Assembly (NCBI RefSeq): GCF_947495705.1
Contig: NZ_CANLZR010000003.1
Location: forward strand, 124,001-188,000
Length of the DNA: 64,000 bases
Direction of reading: 5' to 3'
Source of the DNA: an uncultured Phycicoccus sp.
GTDB taxonomy: Bacteria; Actinomycetota; Actinomycetes; Actinomycetales; Dermatophilaceae
The notes beneath the pieces were generated by a model that had not been told where the DNA came from, made no database searches, and saw only the letters and a list, made by a program, of their open reading frames with translations. The position numbers and the translations under genes are program-made. How positions within the stretch are numbered: position 1 is the first letter of the stretch; every line of letters begins with the position of its first letter. Of this stretch, positions 32,402 to 47,513 are shown piece by piece.

Positions 32402-33490
32402 TCAGTCCCAGGGGTCGGGCTCGTCGACGAGCCCGGGATCCCCGCCGAACGAGCCGTCGTCGGGCGTGGCCTTCGCGCGGGGCTTCTCGTCCGGTGCGTC
32501 CTCGACGGCCGGCTCCGTGGTGGCCTCGACAGGTGCCGGTGCCTCGACCGCCGCGCCGACAGCGGGTTCCTCGTCCGTCGGCTCGTCGGGCTCGGGGGTG
32601 GGCTGCGTGTCGGCGGCCTCGTCCTCAGGCTCGGGGGACGACGCGTCAGCATCCTCCGGGGTCGGCGTCCGGTCCGCCGGAGCGCCCGGGGCCGGCTCGT
32701 CCCACGGGTCGGGCTCGTCGAGGAGGGCCTCGTCGCCCGCGAAGTCCGTGGCGGCCTCGGCTCCCGTCGCCGGCTCGTCGTCGGCACCGGCCGTCGCAGG
32801 GGCCTCGTGGCCCGGGTCGGCCGCGGCAGGTTCATCCTCGGTCGGCGCGGGGGCCTCGGATGCCGTGTCGGTGGCGTCCGTGGCAGCGGGTGCCGCGGCG
32901 GGTTCGTCCCAGGGGTCGGCTTCGTCGGTGGCGACCGTATTGGCGGGGGCCGGGGTGGTGTCCGCGGCAGCGGCGGTGGCGGGTTCGTCCCAGGGGTCGG
33001 GCTCGTCCGTGGCGACGGTGTCGGCGGGGGCCGGGGTGGTGGTCGCCGCAGCGGCGGTGGCGGGTTCGTCCCAGGGGTCGGCTTCGTCGGTGTCGGCGGG
33101 AGCTGTGTTCGGAGTGGTCTCGGGGCCGGTGTCGGTGGTGTCCGTGGGTGCGGCGGCCGGCTCGTCCCAGGGGTCGGCTTCGTCTGTGTCGGCGGGAGCT
33201 GCGCTCGGAGTGGTCTCGGGGCCGTCGTCGGTGGTGTCCGTGGGTGCGGCGGCCGGCTCGTCCCAGGGGTCGGCTTCGTCGGTGGCGACCGTGTCGGCAG
33301 GGGCTGGGGTGGTGTCCGCGGCAGGGGCGGCGGCAGTCGCGGGTTCGTCCCAGGGGTCGGCTTCGTCGGTGGCGACCGTGTCGGCGGGGGCTGGGGTGGT
33401 GGCCGCGGCAGGGGCAGCGGCAGTCGCGGGTTCGTCCCAGGGGTCGGCTTCGTCGGTGGCGGGGGGCGCCGCGCTCGGGGCCTGCTCAAC
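32402..33490 (-). repeat. Imperfect tandem repeats encoding DEADPWDEPA units
   Basis: Within the oxidoreductase gene, the core GACCCCTGGGACGAACCC-type sequence recurs at least nine times with spacers of roughly 30-120 bases. Spacers of several units are near identical (ATAAAPAAxTTPAPADTVAT), showing expansion by duplication. Confidence 0.8.
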
Positions 33491-36176: not shown

Positions 36177-36262
36177 TCGGGGGTTGGCCCCGACAGTACG
36201 TGCGCTGCAGCGCGCCGCCGCCCCTCCGGGACGCCGGCGGTTCCCGACCGAAAGGTGATGCG

Positions 36263-37192
36263 ATGCCCATCCTCGACGACGTGACCCAGGCGGTCGGTAA
36301 CACCCCGCTCGTCCGGCTCAACCGGATCATCGACGGGGATGCGACCGTCGCGGCCAAGCTGGAGTTCTACAACCCGGCGAGCTCGGTCAAGGACCGCATC
36401 GGGGTGGCCATCGTCGACGCCGCGGAGGCGTCCGGGCAGCTGGAGGCCGGCGGCACGATCGTCGAGGCCACGTCGGGCAACACCGGCATCGCACTGGCCA
36501 TGGTCGGGGCAGCCCGCGGCTACCAGGTCGTCCTCGCCATGCCCGAGTCGATGAGCAAGGAGCGACGGGCCCTGCTGCGCGCGTACGGTGCCGAGCTGAT
36601 CCTCACCGACCCGTCGCTCGGGATGAAGGGTGCCGTGGCCAAGGCCGACGAGATCGTCGCCGAGCGCGAGGGCGCGGTGCTCGCCCGCCAGTTCGCCAAC
36701 GCCGCGAACCCCGAGATCCACCGTCGGACGACGGCCGAGGAGATCTGGAAGGACACCGACGGCCAGGTCGACATCGTCGTCGCGGGCATCGGCACCGGTG
36801 GCACCATCACCGGCGTCGGCGAGGTGCTCAAGGCCCGCAAGCCGGGTGTCCAGATCATCGCCGTCGAGCCCGAGGAGTCCCCGATCCTCAACGGCGGCCA
36901 GCCCGGCCCGCACAAGATCCAGGGCATCGGCGCCAACTTCGTCCCGGAGATCCTCAACACCGACATCTACGACGAGGTCATCGACGTCAACGCGCAGACC
37001 TCGGTCGAGTGGGCCCGCAAGGCGGCGACCCACGAGGGCCTGCTCGTCGGCATCTCCTCCGGTTCCGCGCTCGCCGCCGCCGCCCAGGTGGCCGCGCGCC
37101 CCGAGAACGCGGGCAAGACGATCGTCGTCATCATCCCGAGCTTCGGTGAGCGGTACCTGTCGACGATCCTGTTCGAGGGGCTCGTCGACTGA
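36263..37192 (+). CDS. cysK: Cysteine synthase A (O-acetylserine sulfhydrylase)
   Basis: 309-residue PLP enzyme making L-cysteine from O-acetylserine and sulfide. PLP Lys lies in the N-terminal [11 protein letters not shown], the substrate-sensing loop is [12 protein letters not shown], and the phosphate-binding [12 protein letters not shown] loop and the C-terminal [13 protein letters not shown] are conserved. ATG 36263 has GAAAGGTG upstream. cysE starts 2 bases after its stop, so the two successive steps of cysteine synthesis are in one operon and the proteins can form the cysteine synthase complex. Confidence 0.95.
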
Positions 37193-37194
37193 CC

Positions 37195-37791
37195 ATGTCC
37201 TTCCTCCAGCAGGCGCGGGCGACGATCCGCGACGACCTCGACGCGGCGATGCGGCGCGACCCGGCGGCCGAGACGCGTGCCGATGTAGCGCTCAACTCGC
37301 CTGGGCTGCACGCGATCTGGGCCTACCGGCTCGCGCACCGGCTCTGGGGCAAGGGGCCCGGATGGCGCCCCGCCGCGCGCCTGCTGTCGACCGTGGCACG
37401 CGCCGTGACGGGGGTGGAGATCCACCCCGGGGCCAGGATCGGGCAGCGGTTCTTCATCGACCACGGCATGGGCGTCGTCATCGGCGCCACCGCCGTCGTC
37501 GGCGACGACGTCATGCTCTACCACGGGGTCACCCTCGGTGGCCGGTCCCTGCAGCGCGGGGTCAAGCGGCACCCGACCGTGGGCGACCGGGTGACGATCG
37601 GCGCGGGGGCGCGCGTCCTCGGCGACATCCGGATCGGGGACGACGTGCAGATCGGGGCGAACTCGGTCGTCGTCAAGGACGTCCCGGACGGCGCGGTCGC
37701 GACGGGGGTGCCGGCCACGGTCCGCTTCCCCCGGCTTCCCGAGGAGGACCCCTACGACGCGCTGTTCGCCGAACCCGCGATCTTCATCTGA
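37195..37791 (+). CDS. cysE: Serine O-acetyltransferase
   Basis: 198 residues, the short Gram-positive form (EpsC-like). A helical N-terminus is followed by the left-handed beta helix of hexapeptide repeats: [20 protein letters not shown] with the catalytic His/Asp, then [36 protein letters not shown]. Transfers acetyl from acetyl-CoA to L-serine for cysK encoded just upstream. The C-terminus ([10 protein letters not shown]) ends in Ile, as in CysE proteins that dock this residue into the CysK active site. Confidence 0.94.
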
Positions 37792-37808
37792 GCGCACCCC
37801 CGTCCCCC

Positions 37809-37956
37809 CATCGACCAATAGGTCACGCCGGGTACGGACCCCGGTGTCCCGACATCGACCAATAGGTCACGGCAGGTACGAGGTAGGTGTACCTGCCGTG
37901 ACCTGTTGGTCGGTTGGGGTGCGGGGCGTGTACCGGGTGTGACCTATTGGTCGGGT
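37809..37956. repeat. Four-copy repeat cluster, two forward then two inverted
   Basis: Plus copies at 37809-37836 and 37853-37880; minus copies at 37889-37916 and 37930-37956. They lie between the convergent cysE and CHAT genes and could form a large cruciform or hairpin that also acts as a transcription barrier. One inverted copy has TGTTGG for TATTGG. Confidence 0.9.
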
Positions 37957-37987
37957 GGGGTGCGGGTGTCGGCGACCGGGCTGCTGG

Positions 37988-40516
37988 TCAGCGGCCTGCG
38001 GGGCTCCCGTCCGACCCGTGCAGGGAGCTCCCGTCCGACCCGTGCAGGGAGCTCCCGTCCGACCCGTGCAGGGAGCTCCCGTCCGACCCGTGCAGGCAGC
38101 TCCAGTCCGACCCGTACAGGCAGAAGACGCCCGCGTCCGGATGAAGCTCGACGACCTCGGCCCACGCCTGGGCCGCGTCCGCACCCTGCGCGAGCAGCCG
38201 GTGGTAGCCGACCATCGCCTCGGCGGCCAGGTCGTCGGCGACCGGGGACACGGCGGCCAGGACGCTCGTCGCCCCGAGCGAGAGCAGCGCGACGGCCAGC
38301 CCCAGCGGCTCCGCCCCCGGGCGGCTCGAGAACTGGCCGACGTCGCAGGCCGCGAGCGCCACGTGTTCGGCGGCCACGGGGCGGGGGAACTCGTGCGCGA
38401 ACACGGGACCGTCGGACATCCGGACCGACGAGAACAGCGGGCTCTGCGGCTCATGGATGCCGTGGGCGGCGAGATGGACGACCCGCGCGCAGGCCAGGGC
38501 CTCGAGGACATCGGCGCTGGAGGCGAGCCCGACGGCGGCCGGCTCGGCCGTCGCGGAGCCGTCCCCAACGGCCCAGGCGTCCCGGACCGCGTCGACCTCG
38601 GCCGCGCTCCGGGCCAGCCCCGGCCCGTGCACGGCCCGCAGTGCCTCGCTCGCCCGTGGACCGCCGCCGCGCGCCGGACCGCGCACCCAGCGGGTGACGC
38701 TCGGCGCCACGGTGACCGGCCGGCCGCGCAACGACGGGAGCAGGCTCCACGGCATCGCCGCGAGCGACCCGGACGGAACGACGACGACCCGGCCGTCCCC
38801 GCGCCACAGCGGACGCAGCACGGCGTCGACGGTGTCGAGCGACGCGCGGGTGGCTCGCGCGAGCACCGGGGTCATCGGGGACGACGGCCCGAGCGCGGCG
38901 CGCGCCCGCAGGTCTCGGCGGAGCCTGGTGCCGAGCGCCGCGACCTCCGCGGTGTCGCCCACGTCGTGGACGGAGGGCGGCTCGGCGCCGAGGGTCACGG
39001 CGTGCAGCCGGCCGCCGGACTCGAAGAACTCCACGACGACCGTGGCGCGCTCGCGGGCTGCGGCCGCGCCCTCGTCGGCGGCCACGGCCGGGGCGGCGCC
39101 TCCGGCGGCGGCGTCGGTGGCCAGGCTCCACTCCCGCTGCGCGATCAGCGGCTCGAGCTCGCTGACGCGGGCCGTGATGTCTCGGATGACCGCCCCGTCG
39201 CTGTCGACGAGCAGCTGCCGCAACCGTCGCAGCTCGCGGGTCAGCTCGGCGAGCCCGGGGTCCGGCGAGGCGCTGACCGGGTTGATCCGGTGCGAGATGG
39301 CACGCCATCGCTCGACGGTGGTGGCGACCTCGGCCGGGGTCCCCGAGCGCAGGACGCCGGCGATGTCGAACTCCGCCAGCCGGCGGCCGTGCAGGGCCAT
39401 GGCGGCCCGCACGTCGAGACTCGAGGAGAGGAACTGGTGCGCGGCCAGCAGCCGGTTGCCGTCGGTGACGTGGCGTTCGGTGTCCGCCCGATGCCCGCGC
39501 GCCGCCTCGACCCGGGCCCGGACCAGCGCGTCGTGGAGACCGGCCGCGAGGGAGTCGGTACCGGTGTCGTCGAGGGCACTGAGGCAGCGCTGTGCCCCCG
39601 AGACATCCCCGAGCAGGACCCGGGCCTCGGCTTCGAGCCGGATCGCCGCCCGGTCCGAGGGCGAGGCGGTGCGCGCCGCGCCATTGCGTTCGGCGAGGGT
39701 CGCCACCACTGCCGGGAGGTCGGTCCCGGCGGCGACGTCCACCGTGGTCCGGACGAGGTCGGCCTCGCGGACGAGCTCGGACGCCTGCCGGGTCCGGTAG
39801 GCGGCGACCGCGCCCCGGACGTGCTGCCGGGCCGGCTCGAGGTCGTCGACGAGGAGGTCACAGCGGGCGAGCCGTAGGGCGATCTCGCCCTCCTCGATGC
39901 GATGGCCCTCCCGGTGCGCGGCGTCGAGGGCGATGCGCAGCGCCCGGCGGGCCGCGTCGACGAGGCCGGCGTCGAGGAGCACGTCGGCCTCGTCGAGCCG
40001 GCTGCGGTCGCGCGACACCGCGGTCTCCATGGCGTCGGCCGCTCGCATCAGGGTGAGCGCGCGGGGCAGGTCGCCCGCGACGAACGCGACGACCGCGCGG
40101 TTGTGGCGGGCCTTGAACTCGAGGTCGACGAGGCCGTGCCGCGCCGCGACGGCGGCCGCGGCGTCGGCGTGCTCGGCCGCCGCGCGGATGTTGCCGACAC
40201 CGAGCTCGCCCTGCCCGAGGTTGAGCCGCAGCGCCCACGTCTGCGCCGGGTCGAGCAGGTCCTCGTGCGCCGCCGCCCGGCTCAGCGAGTCGACGCAGTC
40301 GCGCCACGCCCCGACGCGACCCTGGATGGTCCCCTCCTGGATGTGGGTCAGGGCGACGAGCAACGGGTCGCCGAGGGCGTCGGCGTCCTGCCGGGCGGCG
40401 CGGAGCATCGCGAGGGCCGGGCGGACTCCGCGCAGCTCGAGCTCGGCCCACGACCGGGTGATGACGATCCGGATGCGCATCCAGCCCGCCGCGTGGTCGG
40501 TCCGCCCGCTCAGCAT
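37988..40516 (-). CDS. TPR-CHAT domain protein (caspase-like protease)
   Basis: At least 842 residues from the first canonical ATG; coding character continues upstream to about 40630, where an ATC with well-placed GGAG may be the true start. The N-terminal ~450 residues are TPR-like helical pairs (DALGDPLLVALTHIQEGTIQ, AHEDLLDPAQTWALRLNLGQ). The C-terminal CHAT domain has the His-Cys dyad in HLAAHGIHEP (His685) and LAACDVGQFS (Cys724), preceded by VVVVPSGSLAAMPWSLLP. It ends in four copies of an eight-residue GSDGSSLH repeat encoded by 24-bp repeats. Last gene of the protease/sigma operon. Cytosolic; substrate unknown, though sigma-control partners are natural candidates. Confidence 0.88.
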   Translation of the reverse strand: MLSGRTDHAAGWMRIRIVITRSWAELELRGVRPALAMLRAARQDADALGDPLLVALTHIQEGTIQGRVGAWRDCVDSLSRAAAHEDLLDPAQTWALRLNLGQGELGVGNIRAAAEHADAAAAVAARHGLVDLEFKARHNRAVVAFVAGDLPRALTLMRAADAMETAVSRDRSRLDEADVLLDAGLVDAARRALRIALDAAHREGHRIEEGEIALRLARCDLLVDDLEPARQHVRGAVAAYRTRQASELVREADLVRTTVDVAAGTDLPAVVATLAERNGAARTASPSDRAAIRLEAEARVLLGDVSGAQRCLSALDDTGTDSLAAGLHDALVRARVEAARGHRADTERHVTDGNRLLAAHQFLSSSLDVRAAMALHGRRLAEFDIAGVLRSGTPAEVATTVERWRAISHRINPVSASPDPGLAELTRELRRLRQLLVDSDGAVIRDITARVSELEPLIAQREWSLATDAAAGGAAPAVAADEGAAAARERATVVVEFFESGGRLHAVTLGAEPPSVHDVGDTAEVAALGTRLRRDLRARAALGPSSPMTPVLARATRASLDTVDAVLRPLWRGDGRVVVVPSGSLAAMPWSLLPSLRGRPVTVAPSVTRWVRGPARGGGPRASEALRAVHGPGLARSAAEVDAVRDAWAVGDGSATAEPAAVGLASSADVLEALACARVVHLAAHGIHEPQSPLFSSVRMSDGPVFAHEFPRPVAAEHVALAACDVGQFSSRPGAEPLGLAVALLSLGATSVLAAVSPVADDLAAEAMVGYHRLLAQGADAAQAWAEVVELHPDAGVFCLYGSDWSCLHGSDGSSLHGSDGSSLHGSDGSSLHGSDGSPAGR
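38002..38117 (-). repeat. 24-bp tandem repeats at the end of the CHAT gene
   Basis: About five units of CTCCCGTCCGACCCGTGCAG plus spacer, period 24 bases, three of them identical. In frame they give LHGSDGSS repeats at the extreme C-terminus. Confidence 0.9.
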
Positions 40517-40639
40517 CCCGAGGGCGTCGTCGAGCCCCGCGGCAGCCTTCTCGAACCGGCCGACCTCGTTGTCGTGGCGCGCCGTGGCGAGGAGGCGCTG
40601 CGCCTGCGCGATCAGCGGGTCGTCCTCGATGAGCCTCTC

Positions 40640-41140
40640 CTAGAGCTCGATCGCGGGGGTGATGATGGGCGGGGCGTCCGGGGCGGACAGCCGCCGGAGC
40701 ACGAAGCTCGCGAGTCCCCGCTCGACTCCGAGGAACGAGAAGCGCCCCTCGTCGTCGGTCGTCGTCGTCCGGGTCCGGCCGCGTTCGCGGAGCTCGACCT
40801 CGACGTCGTTCTCGCTGACCCAGCCGATGACGTCGGAGAGGGTGGACTCGCCGTGCTCGATCGTCACCATGACGCTCAGGCCGTCGCGGGCGAAGGTCAC
40901 GGTGTCGGCGCGGTCGTAGTCGGCGCCGCGCACGGACGCGAGCGTGGACCCGGACACGATCTCGGCCACCTGGGCCTCCAGCGAGGCGACGCTCATCGCG
41001 AACTTGATCCGGTCGAGCAGGTCGCCGGGCATGGGGTCGAGGTGGATGTGGGCCTCGCGCAGCTCGGCCAGGACGAGCTCGTCGACGGCGTCGATCGGTT
41101 CGGCGGCGAGCAGGAACTCGTGGTCGGGCGTCGGGGTCAT
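40640..41140 (-). CDS. Small regulator-like protein with transthyretin-like C-terminal domain
   Basis: 166 residues. Start ATG 41140 overlaps the sigma-factor stop (ATGA). The N-terminal part is acidic and helical (DAVDELVLAELREAHIHLDP, GDLLDRIKFAMSV), reminiscent of the helical N-termini of anti-sigma or sigma-partner proteins but without the HxxxCxxC zinc motif. The second half (VEVELRERGRTRTTTTDDEG, RFSFLGVERGLASFVL) resembles a carboxypeptidase-regulatory/transthyretin-like beta sandwich. I do not recognise a named family; similar small genes sit between ECF sigma and CHAT genes in other actinobacteria as far as I recall. It is a plausible sigma partner and protease target, by position only. 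Confidence 0.6.
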   Translation of the reverse strand: MTPTPDHEFLLAAEPIDAVDELVLAELREAHIHLDPMPGDLLDRIKFAMSVASLEAQVAEIVSGSTLASVRGADYDRADTVTFARDGLSVMVTIEHGESTLSDVIGWVSENDVEVELRERGRTRTTTTDDEGRFSFLGVERGLASFVLRRLSAPDAPPIITPAIEL

Positions 41141-41733
41141 CTCGACATCTCCCATCGGGGGTCGGCGGTGAGCGCAGCGCGGAGCTTGGCCAGGCAGCGG
41201 CCCCGGGTCGGGCCGATCGAGCCGACGGGCATCCCGAGGGCCTCGGCGACGTGCGCGTAGTCGGGGCGTTCGGCGAAGGCGATGGCACGGAGCAGGGTCC
41301 GGCAGCGCTCGGGCAGCTCGGCGAAGTGGGCCCACACGACGGATCCCTCCTCGGCCGCGAGGACGGCCTCCTCGGGGGACGGCTCGGTCTGCTCCGGCTC
41401 GACGTCGCGGACGTCGTCGTAGGTCCCCGTCTCCTCACGCCGGCCGCGCCGGGTGGACGTCCACGCGTCGCGCTTGGTCGTCGTGATGAGCCACTTCAGG
41501 ACGGCCTGCGGGTCGGCGATGGACGGCGCATGCTCGATGAGCTTGAGCCAGGTGTTCTGCACGACGTCCTCGGCCGCCTGCCGGGTCAGCCCCTGCTGCC
41601 GGGCGACCGCCCACAGCAGCGGGGTCACGGCGTCGACGAGCGTCGACATGCCCGACGGGTCCCCGTCCCGGAAGGCCCGGAAGGCGTCGGCCGCGCGCAC
41701 CGCCAGGCTCTCGGCGCCGGCCCCGGTCTGCAT
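41137..41733 (-). CDS. ECF-type RNA polymerase sigma factor
   Basis: 198 residues with only sigma regions 2 and 4. Region 2 includes PLLWAVARQQGLTRQAAEDV and VVQNTWLKLIEHAPSI (core-binding and -10 recognition), region 4 has ELPERCRTLLRAIAFAERPD and the helix-turn-helix YAHVAEALGMPVGSIGPTRG. The separating linker is acidic (DDVRDVEPEQTEPSPEEAV). It should direct transcription of a small regulon, probably including this operon. No membrane anti-sigma factor is encoded nearby. The ATG overlaps the protease stop (TGATG) and the stop overlaps the next ATG, so translation is coupled throughout. Confidence 0.9.
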   Translation of the reverse strand: MQTGAGAESLAVRAADAFRAFRDGDPSGMSTLVDAVTPLLWAVARQQGLTRQAAEDVVQNTWLKLIEHAPSIADPQAVLKWLITTTKRDAWTSTRRGRREETGTYDDVRDVEPEQTEPSPEEAVLAAEEGSVVWAHFAELPERCRTLLRAIAFAERPDYAHVAEALGMPVGSIGPTRGRCLAKLRAALTADPRWEMSR

Positions 41734-43322
41734 CACGGCGAGCCTCCGAGCACGGTGCCGAGAGCCGCGCGGACCCGGTCGGCACGCTTCTCGGGGGACT
41801 CCGGTGCCTCGGTGCCGGCCAGCTCGGCCGCGACCCGGCCGGCGCACCGCGGGCACGCGAAGGACGTCCCGCTCCAGGTCCCGAAGCCGGTGCGGTAGCG
41901 GTCGGGGTCGGCCGTGGCCCGGGCCGGGCTGGCGCCGTGCGCCGGTACGGCCAGCCCACCACGGCCGGACCCGTCGAGCGTGACCGGCATCGTGCTCACG
42001 ACCGCGACGCCGGGCTCGTACGTCGTCACCCAGTCGCCGGTGTTCGAGAAGACGGCGACGGTGCCGTCGGCGGGGTTCGCCGCCCCGACACTCGTGACGG
42101 GCACCGCGGTCGCGGCGCGGGTGGTGAGGGCGGCCGGCCAGAAGTGCTCGGTCGTGGCGCCGTTGCCCGCCGCGGCGACGACGGCCACGCCGTCCTCCGC
42201 CAGCGCGCGCAGGAGGCCGAAGAGGGCGCCCTCGTCCTCCACCGCGCCAGGGCTCTCGTGGTAGTAGCCGAGCGACAGGTTGACGACGTCGACGGGGTCG
42301 CCGTCGCCGCGCCCGTCGAGGGCGGCCCAGTGGTAGAGCGCCAGGGCGCCGAGCGCCTCGATGACGTCGCGCTCGTCGGCCGCGCCGTCGCCGTACATGA
42401 CCGGGACGATGACGAGGCGCGCGTCGGGGCAGTGCTGCCGGATGACGCCCGCCACGAACGTGCCGTGGCCGGCGAGCGCGTCGAGGGTGCCGTTGACGTG
42501 GTCGATGGTGACCCCGGCGCGCTCGGGGTCGTCCGCGGCAGCGAACCGCAGGCCGATGGGGACACCGCCGACGCGCGGGTCGCGCTCGACGAGCGGTGAC
42601 CCGTCGAACCACGGGTGCTCGCCGAGGCCCGTGTCGAGGACGGCGACGACGGGGGAGCACCGCCCCGTGCCGGCCGGCGCCGGGACGTCGAGGACGACGG
42701 GGCCACGCCCGGTGGCCGTGCCCGGGGCGCCGACGCCGCCCATGTAGCCGACGCCGCCCATGTACCCGACGCCGCCCATGTACCCGACGCCGCCCATGTA
42801 CCCGACGCCGCCCATGTACCCGACCCCCTCGAGCGAGCCGGCGCTCATGAGGACGTGGTTCAGACCCCAGCGGGCGACCTTCTCGCCGAACTCGGCACGG
42901 GCCCGCTGGAGGACGCTCCAGGCGTCGAGCGGCGCGGCGAGCCGCGCCGCCGCGGGGACGAGCTCCACCGCGGTGTGCATCACCCGCCCGAGCCGGTCGT
43001 CGTACCCCAGCTCCGCGGCTGGGCCGACCACGGCACTGGGCAGGACCCGTGCGCTGAAGCCCATCTGGTCGCCGAGCTCCGCGAGGATGCCGAGCGGGTC
43101 GCCCAGCTGGTCCTGCGTGAGACCCGGGACGAGGAGCCGGTGCGGGATGTAGCCGACCGGATGAGGGGCCGGCTCGTCACCGATGCGGTCCGCGGTCGCC
43201 GGGTCGAGCACCGTCGCGTGGAACCGCCGCAGGGCCGAGTCGGGGATCCCGAAGACGGGCGTCGGGGGGCGTCGGCCGCGCCCGTTGCCGCCGGTCGCGG
43301 ACTCGGGACCGTTGGCGTCCAT
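41733..43322 (-). CDS. S8 family (subtilisin-like) serine protease
   Basis: 529 residues, first gene of the operon. Catalytic triad: Asp230 in VVAVLDTGLG, His286 in GHGTFVAGVI, Ser487 in GTSFACPRCAG. No signal peptide is visible (the protein starts MDANGPESATGGNGRGRRPP), so unlike most subtilases it seems to stay in the cytosol. Before the catalytic domain, residues ~165-198 consist of five VGYMGG repeats. The N-terminal 150 residues may be a prodomain. Cytosolic S8 plus ECF sigma plus CHAT points to a proteolytic signalling pathway rather than nutrient degradation. Confidence 0.88.
   Translation of the reverse strand: MDANGPESATGGNGRGRRPPTPVFGIPDSALRRFHATVLDPATADRIGDEPAPHPVGYIPHRLLVPGLTQDQLGDPLGILAELGDQMGFSARVLPSAVVGPAAELGYDDRLGRVMHTAVELVPAAARLAAPLDAWSVLQRARAEFGEKVARWGLNHVLMSAGSLEGVGYMGGVGYMGGVGYMGGVGYMGGVGYMGGVGAPGTATGRGPVVLDVPAPAGTGRCSPVVAVLDTGLGEHPWFDGSPLVERDPRVGGVPIGLRFAAADDPERAGVTIDHVNGTLDALAGHGTFVAGVIRQHCPDARLVIVPVMYGDGAADERDVIEALGALALYHWAALDGRGDGDPVDVVNLSLGYYHESPGAVEDEGALFGLLRALAEDGVAVVAAAGNGATTEHFWPAALTTRAATAVPVTSVGAANPADGTVAVFSNTGDWVTTYEPGVAVVSTMPVTLDGSGRGGLAVPAHGASPARATADPDRYRTGFGTWSGTSFACPRCAGRVAAELAGTEAPESPEKRADRVRAALGTVLGGSP
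42733..42832 (-). repeat. 18-bp tandem repeats in the S8 protease gene
   Basis: Five units of GCCCATGTACCCGACGCC (plus-strand reading), nearly identical, with one TAGCCG variant at the edge. They encode consecutive VGYMGG hexapeptides between prodomain and catalytic domain. Confidence 0.9.
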
Positions 43323-43368
43323 GGGCAGCTCCTGTGCGCGAGACCGCGGTCAAGGGACCGTGGCGACT

Positions 43369-43394
43369 CAGCGTAGTGATGATCGTCGACGCTG
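43369..43394 (-). promoter_or_regulatory. Inverted repeat upstream of the protease/sigma/CHAT operon
   Basis: Arms CAGCGT and ACGCTG separated by 14 bases, 47 bases before the protease ATG. On the minus strand the right arm contains TACGCT, which could be a -10 box. Could be a regulator site or promoter for the operon; nothing else is apparent in the 288-base gap 43323-43610. Confidence 0.35.
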
Positions 43395-43610
43395 AACAGG
43401 AGCGTGTTGTGGGGCCGGTGATACATGGCAGCCGGCAGCGGACCCCGGGGTCCGAGGTATCAGGGCGTCGTCGGGACGCTCCTTCGTTCGAGGAGCCGTC
43501 GTGGCGGTGCCTCCGAGGTCTGCGCGCAGGGGCGCAGGCGTCGGGGCAGCGTCACGCGTCCTGCCGACGCAGGCAGGGAACGTGGCGGTGCCCGCCCAGG
43601 ACGGACCCGG

Positions 43611-44006
43611 TCAGTCGGTGCCCGTCGGCGGCCGGGTGGCTGCCGACCAGGCGTCCTCGTGCTCGGCGCCGTTCGTGTCGGCCCGCGTCGAGGGCGCACC
43701 TGCGGTGGATGCGCCACCGGAGTGCTTCCCGCTCGAGGAGTCGTGCGAGATGGCCTCGGAGGCGATGGTCTTGCCCTGGCGCAGCGTCGATGCGGTGGCG
43801 CGGGCGGCGTCGGCGACCATGTCGGCGACGACGGGGGCGGCCTTGGTCCGGGCGACCTCCTTGGCGTGCGCGACCTGCTTCTGCACCGGCGGGGAGTTCC
43901 ACACCTTGGTGGAGGTCCGCTGGATCTGCTCGTAGCGTCGCGTCCCGGCCTTGGCCCCGAGGACGTAGCCCGCGGCCATACCCGCGAGGAAGGACAGCTT
44001 GCCCAT
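43611..44006 (-). CDS. Small YtxH-like membrane-associated protein
   Basis: 131 residues. The N-terminus KLSFLAGMAAGYVLGAKAGT followed by RRYEQIQRTSTKVWNSPPVQ matches a small actinobacterial family, sometimes mislabelled protoporphyrinogen oxidase, with one short Gly-rich hydrophobic helix like YtxH proteins. The middle is a charged amphipathic helix (KQVAHAKEVARTKAAPVVAD) and the tail is Ser/Thr/Gly-rich and disordered. Function unknown, possibly envelope stress. AAAGGAG precedes the ATG. Confidence 0.7.
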   Translation of the reverse strand: MGKLSFLAGMAAGYVLGAKAGTRRYEQIQRTSTKVWNSPPVQKQVAHAKEVARTKAAPVVADMVADAARATASTLRQGKTIASEAISHDSSSGKHSGGASTAGAPSTRADTNGAEHEDAWSAATRPPTGTD

Positions 44007-44116
44007 GGGGGCTCCTTTCGTCGTCCTCGACCTTACCTACCAGGCCTCCGCCGTAGTCCCCGGGTGCACCGACGTTCAGGGCATACCCTTGACCCTCGTC
44101 CGGCCTGTCCGGGTGA

Positions 44117-44203
44117 GGAGGGCTCGCATAGTGGCCTAGTGCGGCGGTCTTGAAAACCGCTATGGCGGCAACGTCATCGTGGGTTCGAATCCCACGCCCT
44201 CCG
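44117..44203 (+). tRNA. serT: tRNA-Ser (anticodon UGA)
   Basis: 87-base class II tRNA. Acceptor GGAGGGC pairs with GCCCTCC; anticodon arm GCGGT-CTTGAAA-ACCGC gives UGA; a long variable arm (TATGGCGGCAACGTCATC region) and T arm GTGGGTTCGAATCCCAC follow. CCA is not encoded. A lower-GC gene follows about 200 bases downstream. Confidence 0.95.
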
Positions 44204-44396
44204 CCCACCATCTGCTGGCAGGTGCCTCCCACCACTGCTGGGACGGCCTCAATGCCCGTGAGACGGTACGGGCCTCTCAATCCCCCTGCCCCGGGGATGC
44301 ACGGGCGCAAGGCCCGGCGGCTCGAAATTCGGCGTGCGTTCGACCCGAACGGAGCGTCAGAGGGCGAGACAGGGCGCAGAGGCCTAGTTCGCGGCG
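44204..44396. other. Non-coding stretch behind tRNA-Ser
   Basis: About 190 bases with no supported gene, more mixed in composition than the surroundings. No second copy of the tRNA 3' end was found downstream inside the window, so an attachment site cannot be shown. Confidence 0.4.
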
Positions 44397-44402
44397 TAAC
44401 GT
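44397..44402 (+). promoter_or_regulatory. Leaderless -10 box of the low-GC membrane protein gene
   Basis: TAACGT ends 6 bases before the GTG start at 44409. Confidence 0.45.
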
Positions 44403-44408
44403 GCAGGG

Positions 44409-44897
44409 GTGAATCTGGAATGGGTGGTACCGCTGCTCACGGCGGTTTTGGGGTTCCTCGGAGGTAATGGCTGGTCGCGTCTTCAGTTAAGCGGCCGGCT
44501 GCGTGCTGACGTCGCGGCCGAGGTTGAGATCCTCAACCAGATGCCTGCCGGGCGTGCCCGTGACGCGCTCGCTCAACACATCGACGGCCGGGTGCTTCTC
44601 CTGGTCGCCGAGCAAGAAGGCCGTACATCAACTGAGCGGCAGAATGTGCGTTGGGCTGTCGTATTCATTCTGCTTGGACTGCTCCTTCCGGTATTGGCCT
44701 ACGTAGAACCTGAGTTTGCTGCCTCGCCGTGGCTTCCCAGCGCCTTCAGGGTTATGGGGGTAGCGATGATGGCATTTGGCTTCTTCTCCTTGATGCGTGT
44801 TCGGGAGCAACATCAGCAACGCAAGTGGGCCAAGCGTCGAGCAGCAGAGACCGATGTGATCGCTGCCCAGGGTTCCTCGTCGTCGCAGCCGGACTGA
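44409..44897 (+). CDS. Two-to-three-TM membrane protein of unknown function, atypical base composition
   Basis: 162 residues. An N-terminal hydrophobic helix (VVPLLTAVLGFLGGNGW), a polar helical segment (ADVAAEVEILNQMPAGRARD), two further hydrophobic helices (AVVFILLGLLLPVLAYV and FRVMGVAMMAFGFFSLM) and a basic, Gln-rich cytoplasmic tail. Family not recognised. Codon use includes many A/T-ending codons (ATT, GTA, CTT, TCA), visibly unlike neighbouring genes, which together with its place behind tRNA-Ser suggests recent acquisition. GTG start in leaderless context. Confidence 0.6.
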   Translation: MNLEWVVPLLTAVLGFLGGNGWSRLQLSGRLRADVAAEVEILNQMPAGRARDALAQHIDGRVLLLVAEQEGRTSTERQNVRWAVVFILLGLLLPVLAYVEPEFAASPWLPSAFRVMGVAMMAFGFFSLMRVREQHQQRKWAKRRAAETDVIAAQGSSSSQPD

Positions 44898-44994
44898 GAC
44901 CCGCAGCCAGAGGGAGCAGCGCCGGCGTGGGTGTGGGCAGGATCGAAGGAGGTTGAAGATTGCCGAGCTACGAGTGCCTCGCGGTGATTGGTCG

Positions 44995-45801
44995 TCAGAA
45001 GAGCGCCGGCGCGCTGCGCGCCCCGGTGTAGAGCGCGACCCCCACGAGCATCACGGCGAACGTGCCGGACAGGTGGCGGGCGTCCACCCGGCTCGCGACC
45101 CGGCCGCCGACGAGGCTGGCGGCCAGGGCCGCCACCGTGAACCCGGCGATGAGGCGCCAGTCGAGGTCGCCAGCGCCCGCGGAGACCCGGCTCGCGAGGG
45201 CGGTGGCGCTGTTGACGGCGATGACGAGCAGCGAGGTGCCCACCGCCACCGGCATGGGGAACGCCAGCGCGAGCACGAGGGCGGGAACGACGACGAACCC
45301 GCCGCCGACCCCGAAGAACCCGGTGAACAGGCCGGCGACGCTGGCGGTGACGACGAGCTTGACCACCCGGGGGCAGGCGCAGCGCAGCGGCCGCAGGCTC
45401 AGCATGGGCTCGGCGGTCGGGTCCGCGTCGGGGGCGGAGCCGGGTCGCAGGGCCTTGCGCAGCATCAGCGTCGCGACGACGAGCATGAGGCCGGCGAAGG
45501 CGGTGAGCAGGACCTGCTGGGGCACCCGCGCCGCGAGGAGGGACCCGAGGATCGCTCCGCCCGCGCCGAGGCCACCGAAGAGCAGGCCCTGGCCCGCCCG
45601 GACCCGACCGGCGCGGGCGTGCTGGATCACCGCGCCCAGCGAGGTGAGCCCCACGATGACGAGCGAGGTCGTCGTCGCGGTCCGCGGGTCCTGCCCGAGC
45701 GCGTAGACGAGAGCGGGGACGGTGAGGACCGACCCGCCCCCGCCCAGCGCGCCGAGCGAGAGACCGATGAGCAGGCCGAGCGGGATCGCCAGGATCGGCA
45801 C
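44995..45801 (-). CDS. TauE/SafE family sulfur-anion exporter
   Basis: 268 residues with about eight membrane helices. The paired Gly-rich motifs GALGGGGSVLTVPALVYALG near the N-terminus and TGFFGVGGGFVVVPALVLAL in the second half are diagnostic of TauE/SafE permeases, which export sulfite or similar sulfur anions. It ends a three-gene operon with a small Cys protein and an MBL-rhodanese enzyme, so export of sulfite or thiosulfate formed from persulfides is the likely job, as with TauE of the staphylococcal cst locus. A cytoplasmic loop with LRCACP adds two Cys residues. Confidence 0.85.
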   Translation of the reverse strand: MPILAIPLGLLIGLSLGALGGGGSVLTVPALVYALGQDPRTATTTSLVIVGLTSLGAVIQHARAGRVRAGQGLLFGGLGAGGAILGSLLAARVPQQVLLTAFAGLMLVVATLMLRKALRPGSAPDADPTAEPMLSLRPLRCACPRVVKLVVTASVAGLFTGFFGVGGGFVVVPALVLALAFPMPVAVGTSLLVIAVNSATALASRVSAGAGDLDWRLIAGFTVAALAASLVGGRVASRVDARHLSGTFAVMLVGVALYTGARSAPALF

Positions 45802-45819
45802 GTGCTGCTCTCGCCCGGC

Positions 45820-45987
45820 TCAGCGACGGCTGAGAACGCGGTCCAGGAAGGACGCCCCTTGCGGCTCGTCGCCGTGGCCCGGGCAGCGCTGGGGCTGCGG
45901 GACCCCGGCCATGACCTGGTCGACGTGCTGGCCGCAGCCGGCCCAGGTGGTCTTGCCGCAGATGGAGCAGTTGGCGGGTCGGCACAT
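45820..45987 (-). CDS. Small cysteine-rich protein of the sulfur operon
   Basis: 55 residues: MCRPANCSICGKTTWAGCGQ, then HVDQVMAGVPQPQRCPGH and a polar tail. Five Cys and three His residues in CxxC..C..H..C order suggest a zinc-ribbon or a small thiol/metal-binding protein. GGAGATCCATC precedes the ATG. Short proteins of this kind are common in actinobacterial genomes beside rhodanese genes; their role is unknown. It lies 61 bases after the MBL-rhodanese gene and 18 before tauE. Confidence 0.65.
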   Translation of the reverse strand: MCRPANCSICGKTTWAGCGQHVDQVMAGVPQPQRCPGHGDEPQGASFLDRVLSRR

Positions 45988-46048
45988 GATGGATCTCCTC
46001 GAGAGGTTGGGGGGTGGCGCAGAAGTACAGGGAAGGACGGACGGACGG

Positions 46049-47428
46049 TCAGGCGGCGGCGACCATCGGCAGCCCGGTCTCGCCGGCCTTCTCGAACTCG
46101 TCGTCGATGGCGACGACCCGGCGGCCGCGGGCGGCCAGAACGGAGGCCGCGATCGAGGCGCGGTAGCCGCTGGCGCAGTGGACCCACACCTCGCCGTCCG
46201 GCACCTCGTCGATCCGGTCGAGCAACTCGTGCAGGGGGATCGCGACGGCACCCTCGATGTGCCCGTCGCCGACCTCGGAGTCCCGGCGGACGTCGAGGAC
46301 GGTGACCGGGCGGTGGTGCCGGACCTCCGCGAGGTCGGCGAAGACCGCCCGCGGGAAGGTGCCGAGCGGGGCGTCGGTCCACTCGCTCGGGTCGCCGGTG
46401 GCGGCGCCCTCGAGCCGGTCGATGCCGATCCGCACCAGCTCACGCTGGGCCTCGGCGACCTGCTCCGGGGTGTCGCCCAGCAGCGTGAGCGGGGTGCCCC
46501 ACGGGATGAGCCAGCCGAGGTACGTGGCGAACTGCCCGTCGACGCCGATGTTGAGGGTGCCGGTGACATGGCCCGCGGCGAACGCGGTGCGGTTGCGCAG
46601 GTCGACGACCCACTCGCCGGCGGCGATACGCGCCGCGACGGTGTCCTTGTCGGCCGACTCCGGCGTCGACAGCTCGGGGGCGTCGGGGCCGGCGCTGTTC
46701 ATCGGGCCCATGTGCACGTAGTAGGCGGGGTAGTCGTCGAGCCCGGCGAGGGTGTCGGCGACCCAGCGGTCCTCGTCCTCGGTGAGGACGGGGTTCTCGC
46801 GGCGCTCGGTGCCGATCGTCGAGGACGTGGAGTTCCCGGAGGAGCCGGACGAGCAGAAGGAGCCGAACCCGTGCGTGGGCAGCACGTCGGCGTCGTCGGG
46901 GAGGGTGTCGGCCAGCCGGTGCGCGGAGGCGAACTGGTGGTGGACGAGGTCGTCGGTGTGCTCGGGGCCGAGCAGGTCCGGCCGGCCGGTCGCGCCGAAC
47001 AACAGCGACCCGCCGGTGAAGACGGCGACCGTCTCGGCCGCTGCGGTCTCGAGGGCGTACGACAGGTGGGTGTAGGTGTGTCCCGGGGTGGCGATGGCGC
47101 GGACCTTGAGGTCGGCGGACACCTCCACGACGTCACCGTCGCTCACGGGCGTGCGGTCGAAGGAGACCTCGTCCGCCGCGTTGACGTGGTACGCCGCGCC
47201 GGTCGCCTCGGCGAGGGCCAGGCCGCCGGTGACGTAGTCGTTGTGGATGTGGGTCTCGAAGACGTGCGTGATGGTGACGCCGGCCTCCGCGGCGAGGTCG
47301 AGGACCCGGTCGATGTCGCGCTGCGGGTCGACGACGAGGGCGACCGAGCCGTCGTGCGCGAGGTACGAGCGGTCGCCCAGCGTGGGGGTCTCCACGGGGA
47401 GGATGACAGGGGTGGTGCCGTTGCTCAT
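46049..47428 (-). CDS. MBL-fold persulfide dioxygenase-like/rhodanese fusion
   Basis: 459 residues. N-terminal metallo-beta-lactamase domain with metal ligands in THIHNDYVTGG (HxHxD variant), TPGHTYTH and THGFGSFC, typical of ETHE1/CstB persulfide dioxygenases. Two rhodanese modules follow: the first (VDLRNRTAFAAGHVTGTLNI) lacks an active-site Cys at the loop, the second (VLDVRRDSEVGDGHIEGAV) carries catalytic Cys in VWVHCASGYRAS. It should oxidise low-molecular-weight persulfides to sulfite/thiosulfate. Start ATG 47428 is supported by GGAAGG; 12 codons upstream another Met exists. A CstR/CsoR-like palindrome lies in its promoter. Confidence 0.87.
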   Translation of the reverse strand: MSNGTTPVILPVETPTLGDRSYLAHDGSVALVVDPQRDIDRVLDLAAEAGVTITHVFETHIHNDYVTGGLALAEATGAAYHVNAADEVSFDRTPVSDGDVVEVSADLKVRAIATPGHTYTHLSYALETAAAETVAVFTGGSLLFGATGRPDLLGPEHTDDLVHHQFASAHRLADTLPDDADVLPTHGFGSFCSSGSSGNSTSSTIGTERRENPVLTEDEDRWVADTLAGLDDYPAYYVHMGPMNSAGPDAPELSTPESADKDTVAARIAAGEWVVDLRNRTAFAAGHVTGTLNIGVDGQFATYLGWLIPWGTPLTLLGDTPEQVAEAQRELVRIGIDRLEGAATGDPSEWTDAPLGTFPRAVFADLAEVRHHRPVTVLDVRRDSEVGDGHIEGAVAIPLHELLDRIDEVPDGEVWVHCASGYRASIAASVLAARGRRVVAIDDEFEKAGETGLPMVAAA

Positions 47429-47513
47429 GGCGGGGACCTTCCTGGTGGCTGTCGGTGAGTCCATGGTGGCGCGGTCGGGTGGGTGCCGGCGTGGACGTTG
47501 CGCACCACTTTAG

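Follow-up and report, generated by a model that had tools for sequence, protein, structure and literature searches.

The DNA studied here, called the window below, is a 64,000-nucleotide stretch (positions 124,001 to 188,000) of contig NZ_CANLZR010000003.1 from an uncultured Phycicoccus sp. of the family Dermatophilaceae, whose genome is 3.54 Mb. Its minus strand carries an operon of four genes, labelled S8 (S8 protease), sigma (extracytoplasmic function (ECF)-type sigma factor), small (a 166-aa protein) and CHAT (TPR-CHAT protease).

41733..43322, minus strand: S8 (subtilisin-like) protease, 529 aa, without signal peptide (Pfam, alignment, hydropathy)
41137..41733, minus strand: ECF-type sigma factor, 198 aa (Pfam, TIGR02937)
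40640..41140, minus strand: small, 166 aa, with helices 7-64, linker 65-79 and beta-sandwich 80-150; candidate cytosolic anti-sigma factor (AlphaFold2 (AF2) model, adjacency)
37988..40630, minus strand: TPR-CHAT protease, 880 codons from ATC, with His723 at 38464-38462 and Cys762 at 38347-38345 (Pfam, alignment)

The first-pass annotation of this DNA described four minus-strand genes joined by TGATG, ATGA and zero-gap junctions, and all of these are present. S8 (43322-41733) overlaps sigma (41733-41137) through TGATG, sigma overlaps small (41140-40640) through ATGA, and the CHAT frame begins immediately after the TAG of small. Pfam gave Peptidase_S8 for S8 (1.6e-21), Sigma70_r2 for sigma (2.2e-8) and CHAT PF12770 for CHAT (2.4e-20). 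The sole match on small was CarboxypepD_reg, which was sub-threshold (4e-4). The domain descriptions of that annotation also held. The N-terminus of S8 is not hydrophobic (the highest 19-residue hydropathy within the first 50 residues is 0.43), as expected from a protein said to lack a signal peptide. The two-region architecture of sigma was borne out by TIGR02937 (sigma70-ECF, 3.8e-17), which matches residues 30-188 with positions 4-165 of 165, nearly the whole model; in the Pfam scan Sigma70_r2 stood alone, with no separate sigma4 match. The His-Cys dyad of CHAT, described as intact, is invariant in 20 aligned sequences (H723 and C762). However, the numbering Cys724 had to be changed because it rested on a start at ATG 40516, and from the likely ATC start the catalytic cysteine is residue 762. 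The S8 triad of D230 (42635-42633), H286 (42467-42465) and S487 (41864-41862) is invariant in 23 aligned sequences.

The four-gene order, to which the annotation had drawn attention, is kept in many genera and also outside the family. With the CHAT protein as the query (E <= 1e-20), matches were found in 104 of 186 Dermatophilaceae genomes and 30 of 53 genera, and 101 loci, the window included, were read from 92 of these 104 genomes. The order S8-sigma-small-CHAT on one strand was found in 80 of the 101 loci, from 22 genera. Therefore, the order far exceeds chance. Of the other arrangements, five loci have sigma-small-S8-CHAT, nine have S8 and CHAT divergent with sigma beyond CHAT or before S8, and four are partial. 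In other genera, the loci L076-L085 represent a divergent version of the module, with S8 and CHAT divergent and with sigma and small elsewhere. Small lies directly 3' of sigma on the same strand at 55 of 58 called sigma genes by profile, including loci in which S8 and CHAT are rearranged. The three exceptions are a gene-caller miss at L043, where tblastn detects small, and extra sigma genes off the module at L054 and L077. In the nine divergent family loci, small was found adjoining sigma in three by tblastn and in all nine by profile.

Distant loci were found with a CHAT alignment as the query, whereas the single CHAT protein found none. Thirty-three of the 80 loci retrieved were examined. 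They come from Nocardioides, Propionibacteriaceae, Cellulomonas, Occultella, Nonomuraea and metagenome-assembled genomes (MAGs) of other orders, nearly all outside the family (L173, from Dermatophilaceae, is the exception). Sigma, small and CHAT are together in 28 of the 33, an S8 match is present in 21, and all four genes are present in 18. Small was detected in 44 of 248 genomes sampled across the order, the family included.

The start codon of CHAT

40628..40630, minus strand: ATC (AUC), the most likely start codon of CHAT (comparative sequence, coding constraint, anti-Shine-Dalgarno energy)
40634..40640, minus strand: Shine-Dalgarno (SD)-like GGAGAGG overlapping the TAG of small (anti-SD -7.6 kcal/mol; 2.8% of control positions match)

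In the window, GGAGAGG at the 5' end of CHAT is followed by CTC ATC GAG. The first ATG, GTG or TTG is ATG 40516, 41 codons into the frame after the TAG and 38 codons past ATC. Comparative sequence indicates that CHAT most likely starts at ATC 40630-40628 rather than at ATG 40516, because the latter start would lose 38 residues on which relatives show coding constraint. This constraint was estimated as the ratio of non-synonymous to synonymous change (pN/pS) from a codon alignment of 13 ATC loci, nine from genera g1 (the genus of the window) and g15 and four from g44. In the nine g1 and g15 loci the ratio is 0.65 over the 38 codons after ATC and 0.72 in the CHAT body, compared with 1.18-1.24 in the other frames and 1.08 upstream of ATC. 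In the four g44 loci it is 0.48 after ATC and 0.50 in the body, against 0.99-1.40 in the control frames and 3.81 upstream.

The start codons were surveyed with a rule-based count at 83 family loci in which small is next to CHAT. ATC alone was found at 38 loci from 14 genera, ATC with a nearby canonical codon at 7, and no anchor motif at 5. Twenty-eight of the 83 loci have an upstream in-frame stop and lack any ATG, GTG or TTG before the conserved first (anchor) motif; 20 of these 28 have ATC. The ATC lies 8-15 nt past the stop of small in 28 of the 45 ATC loci and 30-75 nt past it in the other 17. The mean anti-SD energy over the 45 loci is -8.1 at ATC and -3.9 at control positions. Stop-codon readthrough fusing small and CHAT was also considered and dismissed. 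Since ATC occurs in all three frames relative to small (17, 16 and 12 of the 45 loci), the in-frame TAG of the window is due to chance.

Several counts weigh against the ATC start or limit its reach. Eighteen of the 83 loci have a canonical codon alone and 15 have neither, seven of the latter in g30, where the corresponding codon is ACG or CTG in six and an ACG lies one codon away in the seventh. In genus g42 most loci have an ATG or GTG start. When all 13 loci are pooled the contrast in pN/pS is weaker (0.77 after ATC, 0.83 in the body, 1.09-1.16 in the controls and 0.99 upstream). Taken one by one, no more than 13 of the 45 SD sites rank within the top 5% of control positions. Outside the family, all 9 readable loci among 20 from the order have a canonical codon near the CHAT 5' end. 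Likewise, of 23 distant loci with small before CHAT, 18 are canonical, four have neither and one has ATC (L159, a Micrococcales MAG). Therefore, the start throttle is not essential to the module, and a universal AUC start was ruled out by the mostly canonical starts outside the family and in g42. The distribution of the codons looks like that of a derived trait centred on Dermatophilaceae.

A start at an ordinary downstream ATG or GTG, with the ATC incidental, was weighed against these data. The seven loci with ATC and a canonical codon close together would suit it, as would the canonical codons of numerous relatives, both in g42 and outside the family. On the other hand, coding constraint sets in at ATC, SD-like sequences precede it, and in the window the nearest canonical codon is 38 codons downstream. 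The downstream start is thus very improbable. With the AUC start as the preferred one, an annotation limited to ATG, GTG and TTG would miss the start of CHAT.

Two observations on start codons stand apart. The four distant loci with neither ATG/GTG/TTG nor ATC at the CHAT 5' end are L143, L188, L192 and L210 (Nocardioides and three Propionibacteriaceae or Propionicimonas MAGs). In the genome of the window, infC (L091, G000:C13:17535-21038, minus strand) has an apparent ATC start behind AAGGAG, where the IF3 start is expected, in agreement with the ATC given for Streptomyces infC (PMC5472188).

The small protein and the S8 protease

40928..40930, minus strand: Arg71 codon of small, candidate CHAT cleavage site (127-sequence alignment)
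42843..43241, minus strand: S8 residues 28-160, N-terminal prodomain-like (I9-like) domain (predicted fold)
42730..42824, minus strand: 18-bp x 5.3 tandem array of GVGYMG units between the N-terminal and catalytic domains of S8 (repeat scan, AF2 disorder)

Small had been described as a protein with a helical N-terminus and a TTR-like C-terminus. Its AF2 model has a mean predicted local distance difference test (pLDDT) score of 82, with three helices (7-13, 18-34 and 41-64) followed by a beta-sandwich of seven strands. The linker between them has pLDDT below 50 at residues 64-76 and varies in length among homologues. CarboxypepD_reg was matched by 21 of 25 members of the small family (best 1.9e-6). 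Arg71 in the linker is present in 127 of 127 homologues, paralogues and other families included, while its linker neighbours are variable; the alignment holds many close relatives, and the aligner may favour lining up an Arg. Even so, such an invariant column is very unlikely to arise by chance. The other conserved positions are D35 (100%), P36 (98%), P38 (99%), F83 (98%) and T161 (99%). From the alignment and the model, Arg71 in the disordered linker is a plausible candidate for the CHAT cut site. Sigma and small would form a sigma/anti-sigma pair, with the anti-sigma part likely in the N-terminal helices. Three points speak against this picture of small. The conservation of Arg71 could be structural instead of cleavage-related. 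The Foldseek matches of small are partial, mostly to beta-sandwich proteins, and none reaches E <= 0.001. A profile of small against the PDB gave no credible match for the helical part (best E 0.25).

In the AF2 model of S8 (mean pLDDT 72), a confident N-terminal block (residues 31-160, pLDDT 85-96) is followed by a disordered stretch (164-210), after which comes the catalytic domain. In the list of 50 Foldseek matches, the alignments span 474-507 columns for pro-subtilisins and 479-486 for PCSK9, compared with 285-311 for most mature subtilisins and up to 366 for some other mature subtilases. Because pro-subtilisins align over a longer stretch than the mature enzymes, the N-terminal domain would occupy the position of an I9 prodomain. 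Judged from the predicted structure, S8 looks arranged like a zymogen with a prodomain-like N-terminus. Against this arrangement, the zymogen matches have a query TM-score of 0.38-0.43 and a root-mean-square deviation of 6.5-9.4 in whole-protein comparison. By sequence, I9 was not detected in the N-terminus of S8, with no Pfam I9 match in 23 members and no PDB profile match.

The tandem array follows the N-terminal domain. With an exact peptide repeat of at least 2.5 copies as the criterion, an array was found in 78 of 97 S8 proteins. The arrays contain 3-12 near-identical units of 6-9 residues. The S8 proteins without one include those of nine among the ten divergent-type loci (L076-L085); some other arrays are degenerate or cut. 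The unit differs between lineages (GYMGGV, GYGSGV, GYTSGV, GYWGGVG, GETHGV, GQWGSV, GYLQGV and PYWMSM), and PFTTSN and NPVGRG were found in the other (divergent) architecture. When neighbouring copies were compared in 77 arrays, 797 codon differences were synonymous and 53 non-synonymous, and 1374 codons were identical; the counts from the array of the window itself are small (2, 2 and 26, respectively). The array finder was seeded on exact peptide repeats and is thus biased toward low non-synonymous counts, but this bias fails to explain how copies so different in DNA encode like peptides. The codon counts are read as selection that keeps the units alike within each gene while the unit differs between lineages. 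Such likeness of copies within one protein, with turnover of the unit between lineages, is unusual.

The preferred function of the units would be self-cleavage. Pro-subtilisins are cut between the prodomain and the catalytic domain, and the array is placed just there, directly after the final strand predicted for the N-terminal domain and ahead of the catalytic domain. This position argues against the array being a structural spacer or a multivalent binding strip. Yet the array is rich in Gly and aromatic residues and predicted to be disordered, and units such as PFTTSN and NPVGRG look unlike subtilisin sites. A spacer or binding strip is a real possibility, though less likely than not.

The proposed switch and the surroundings of the operon

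The first-pass annotation interpreted the operon as a CRISPR-independent proteolytic switch in stress or defence. This interpretation stood in part. In its favour are the gene order, the adjacency of sigma and small, the negative results for cas1 and for a CRISPR-like array in the parts scanned, and the invariant Arg as a plausible CHAT cut site. The neighbourhood, however, is already in print, and the defence role has no support. The defence reading was dropped because PADLOC returned one weak match alone, which linked sigma with an 'Effector' model (E 0.004), and the operon is flanked by PALP and serine-acetyltransferase-like genes.

We propose an ECF54-like cytosolic switch in which sigma and small are a sigma/anti-sigma pair, CHAT cuts small near R71 and CHAT is throttled at initiation. 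It is a tentative reading, to which we give somewhat less than an even chance. Comparative sequence supports the conservation of the operon, the AUC start, the array, the invariant Arg and the intact active sites. The pairing, the cut near R71, the control by IF3 and the auto-processing of S8 are inferred. In the proposed switch, small, encoded beside sigma, would hold sigma through its N-terminal helices. A signal on the TPR part would activate CHAT, which would cut small in the disordered linker, most likely at Arg71. The cut would separate the helical domain from the beta-sandwich and free sigma. The AUC start would keep CHAT synthesis low. Because the codon is AUC, initiation of CHAT is expected to be weak, and by analogy with infC and Streptomyces sigR it may be under IF3 control. 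S8 would be synthesised as a zymogen bearing a prodomain-like N-terminus, and the array at its junction would be a row of self-cleavage sites matching the specificity of the enzyme. More speculatively, S8 might finish off the cut small or act downstream.

Two other schemes use the same genes. The proteases may degrade sigma itself and keep the system off, with small as an adaptor or sensor. The ECF54 review (PMC8999054) places this group, in its section on it, among sigma factors kept inactive by proteolysis, and both proteases are co-encoded with sigma. Nevertheless, 55 of 58 sigma genes are followed by small on the same strand, also where the proteases have moved, as in sigma/anti-sigma pairs, and small carries an invariant residue in its disordered linker (no comparable site was sought in sigma). 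Degradation of sigma is accordingly unlikely. In the other scheme the two proteases, CHAT and S8, act on one another (CHAT might trigger S8, for instance), and small regulates one of them. The usual co-encoding of both proteases and the zymogen-like model of S8, with its conspicuous junction, would fit such a cascade. It is hard to reconcile with array units that vary by lineage while the catalytic motifs of CHAT do not, and with modules of sigma, small and CHAT in which S8 was not found, and we consider it quite unlikely. S8 was not found in 3 of the 101 family loci, which hold the other three genes, or in 12 of the 33 distant loci. These cases also weigh against the proposed switch as far as S8 is concerned.

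A bolder form of the sigma/anti-sigma switch is a caspase-like switch with a trigger level set at translation initiation and a lineage-specific cleavage-site barcode in S8 that co-evolves with its specificity. Taken as a whole, this form is rather unlikely. If it were true, CHAT, the executioner protease, would be made from an AUC codon alone. Whatever impairs the fidelity of initiation or reduces IF3, such as stress, ribosome damage or phage takeover, would then raise CHAT, so that the anti-sigma factor is cut at one conserved Arg and the sigma response fires.

Conserved elements precede the operon.

43457..43483, minus strand: conserved element AGGAG-N16-TGATAC
43398..43424, plus strand: inverted copy of this element
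43369..43402, minus strand: conserved promoter-like block CTCCTGTTCAGCG...TCACTACGCTG, once in the genome

Most g1 and g15 loci have AGGAS-N16-TGATAC, the inverted copy and the TCACTA..CT block before the operon. In g44 the inverted copy was matched at 10 of 10 loci and the forward copy at 2. Other genera gave scattered matches, and many gave none (g50 and most of g42 among them). The genome holds 12 copies of AGGAS-N15-17-TGATAC, compared with 0 for a reversed control. Two of the sites are at the operon, and the gene contexts of the other ten showed no common theme by eye.

Repeats are also present at the other end of the operon.

38003..38120, minus strand: 24-bp x 4.9 tandem repeat in the CHAT C-terminal tail, GSDGSSLH (repeat scan)

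This tail repeat was not seen in relatives whose CHAT tail was read. An apparent amyloid-signalling motif at CHAT C-termini (Q-I/M-Q/K-x-AGS-x-N...) was rejected, as it is really the antisense of the 3' end of a convergent gene; in the window, identical letters lie outside that frame. At L039-L041, L051, L054 and L056 the CHAT frame enters the 3' end of the convergent gene, which produces a false conserved motif, QIQxAGSxNIAS. Downstream of CHAT, intergenic repeats with CGACCAATAGGTCAC lie in both orientations (37802-37966), possibly a REP-like (repetitive extragenic palindromic) element or a terminator. Sulfur-related genes flank the operon in 36200-47464, namely PALP (cysteine-synthase-like), serine-acetyltransferase-like, TauE/SafE exporter and rhodanese/metallo-beta-lactamase-like genes. 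Farther away, six to seven DEADPWDEPA-type repeats with 81-96 nt spacing (32893-33455) lie in the C-terminus of a large minus-strand reading frame.

Comparison with known systems

ECF54 sigma factors have conserved neighbours with carboxypeptidase, subtilase and CHAT domains, and control by proteolysis, in that section proteolysis of the sigma factor itself, has been proposed (PMC8999054). Carboxypeptidase-type, subtilase and CHAT domains are all present in the operon. By its gene neighbourhood, the module is a known type, ECF54-like, and it is not new because that review describes it. Both have an ECF sigma factor beside these genes, and the ECF54 section describes no anti-sigma factor. What the review calls a 'carboxypeptidase' probably corresponds to the CarboxypepD_reg-like domain of small, which would be a beta-sandwich rather than an enzyme. 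The module differs in the start-codon throttle, the peptide array and the conserved Arg linker, which are absent from the ECF54 description. No report of an AUC-start CHAT gene, a subtilase junction array, the module beyond ECF54 or an invariant Arg in the linker of small was found in the open-licence literature. The invariant Arg71 would narrow the vague idea of ECF54 proteolysis to a single residue.

CHAT weakly matched the solved 'CHAT domain protein' chains 8d9f and 8d9g (E 0.009), which are Csx29 structures; the weakness of this match counts against the proposed switch. In type III-E CRISPR systems, Csx29 cuts Csx30 and lifts the inhibition of CASP-sigma, according to the part of the report on this cleavage (PMC10028731). 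That system shares with the operon a TPR-CHAT protease, an ECF sigma factor and a third protein with a flexible linker. In contrast, small has 166 aa and Csx30 has 565, and S8 is added here. No cas1 was found in the genome and no CRISPR-like array in the scanned part of the window (30000-52000), which agrees with the claimed independence from CRISPR; other cas genes were not searched. The EACC2/TRADD-N caspase-type conflict systems also bring together genes for a caspase-like peptidase, TPR and ECF sigma (PMC8195603, in the section on these systems). Here CHAT and TPR are in one protein, S8 and a small beta-sandwich protein are added, and the Pfam scan reported no EACC2 or TRADD-N domain in the four proteins. 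S8 resembles pro-subtilisins with an I9 prodomain in its catalytic domain (Pfam) and may share their zymogen arrangement (Foldseek), and it differs in lacking a signal peptide and an I9 sequence match and in the 3-12-unit array before the catalytic domain.

For the start codon, the closest cases are the IF3-repressed GTC start of Streptomyces sigR and the ATC start of Streptomyces infC. Regulatory non-canonical start codons are described as very few in the passage that reports them (PMC5472188). The likeness lies in a conserved non-canonical codon behind a ribosome-binding site in a regulatory operon of Actinobacteria, and a codon other than ATG, GTG or TTG conserved behind an SD-like sequence, as in IF3-regulated genes, is also found at CHAT. 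The throttled gene here is a protease and not a sigma factor or IF3, and the codon is AUC, or ACG/CTG in g30. If a caspase-like protease has kept an AUC start in 14 genera (ATC alone), its control would be linked to initiation fidelity.

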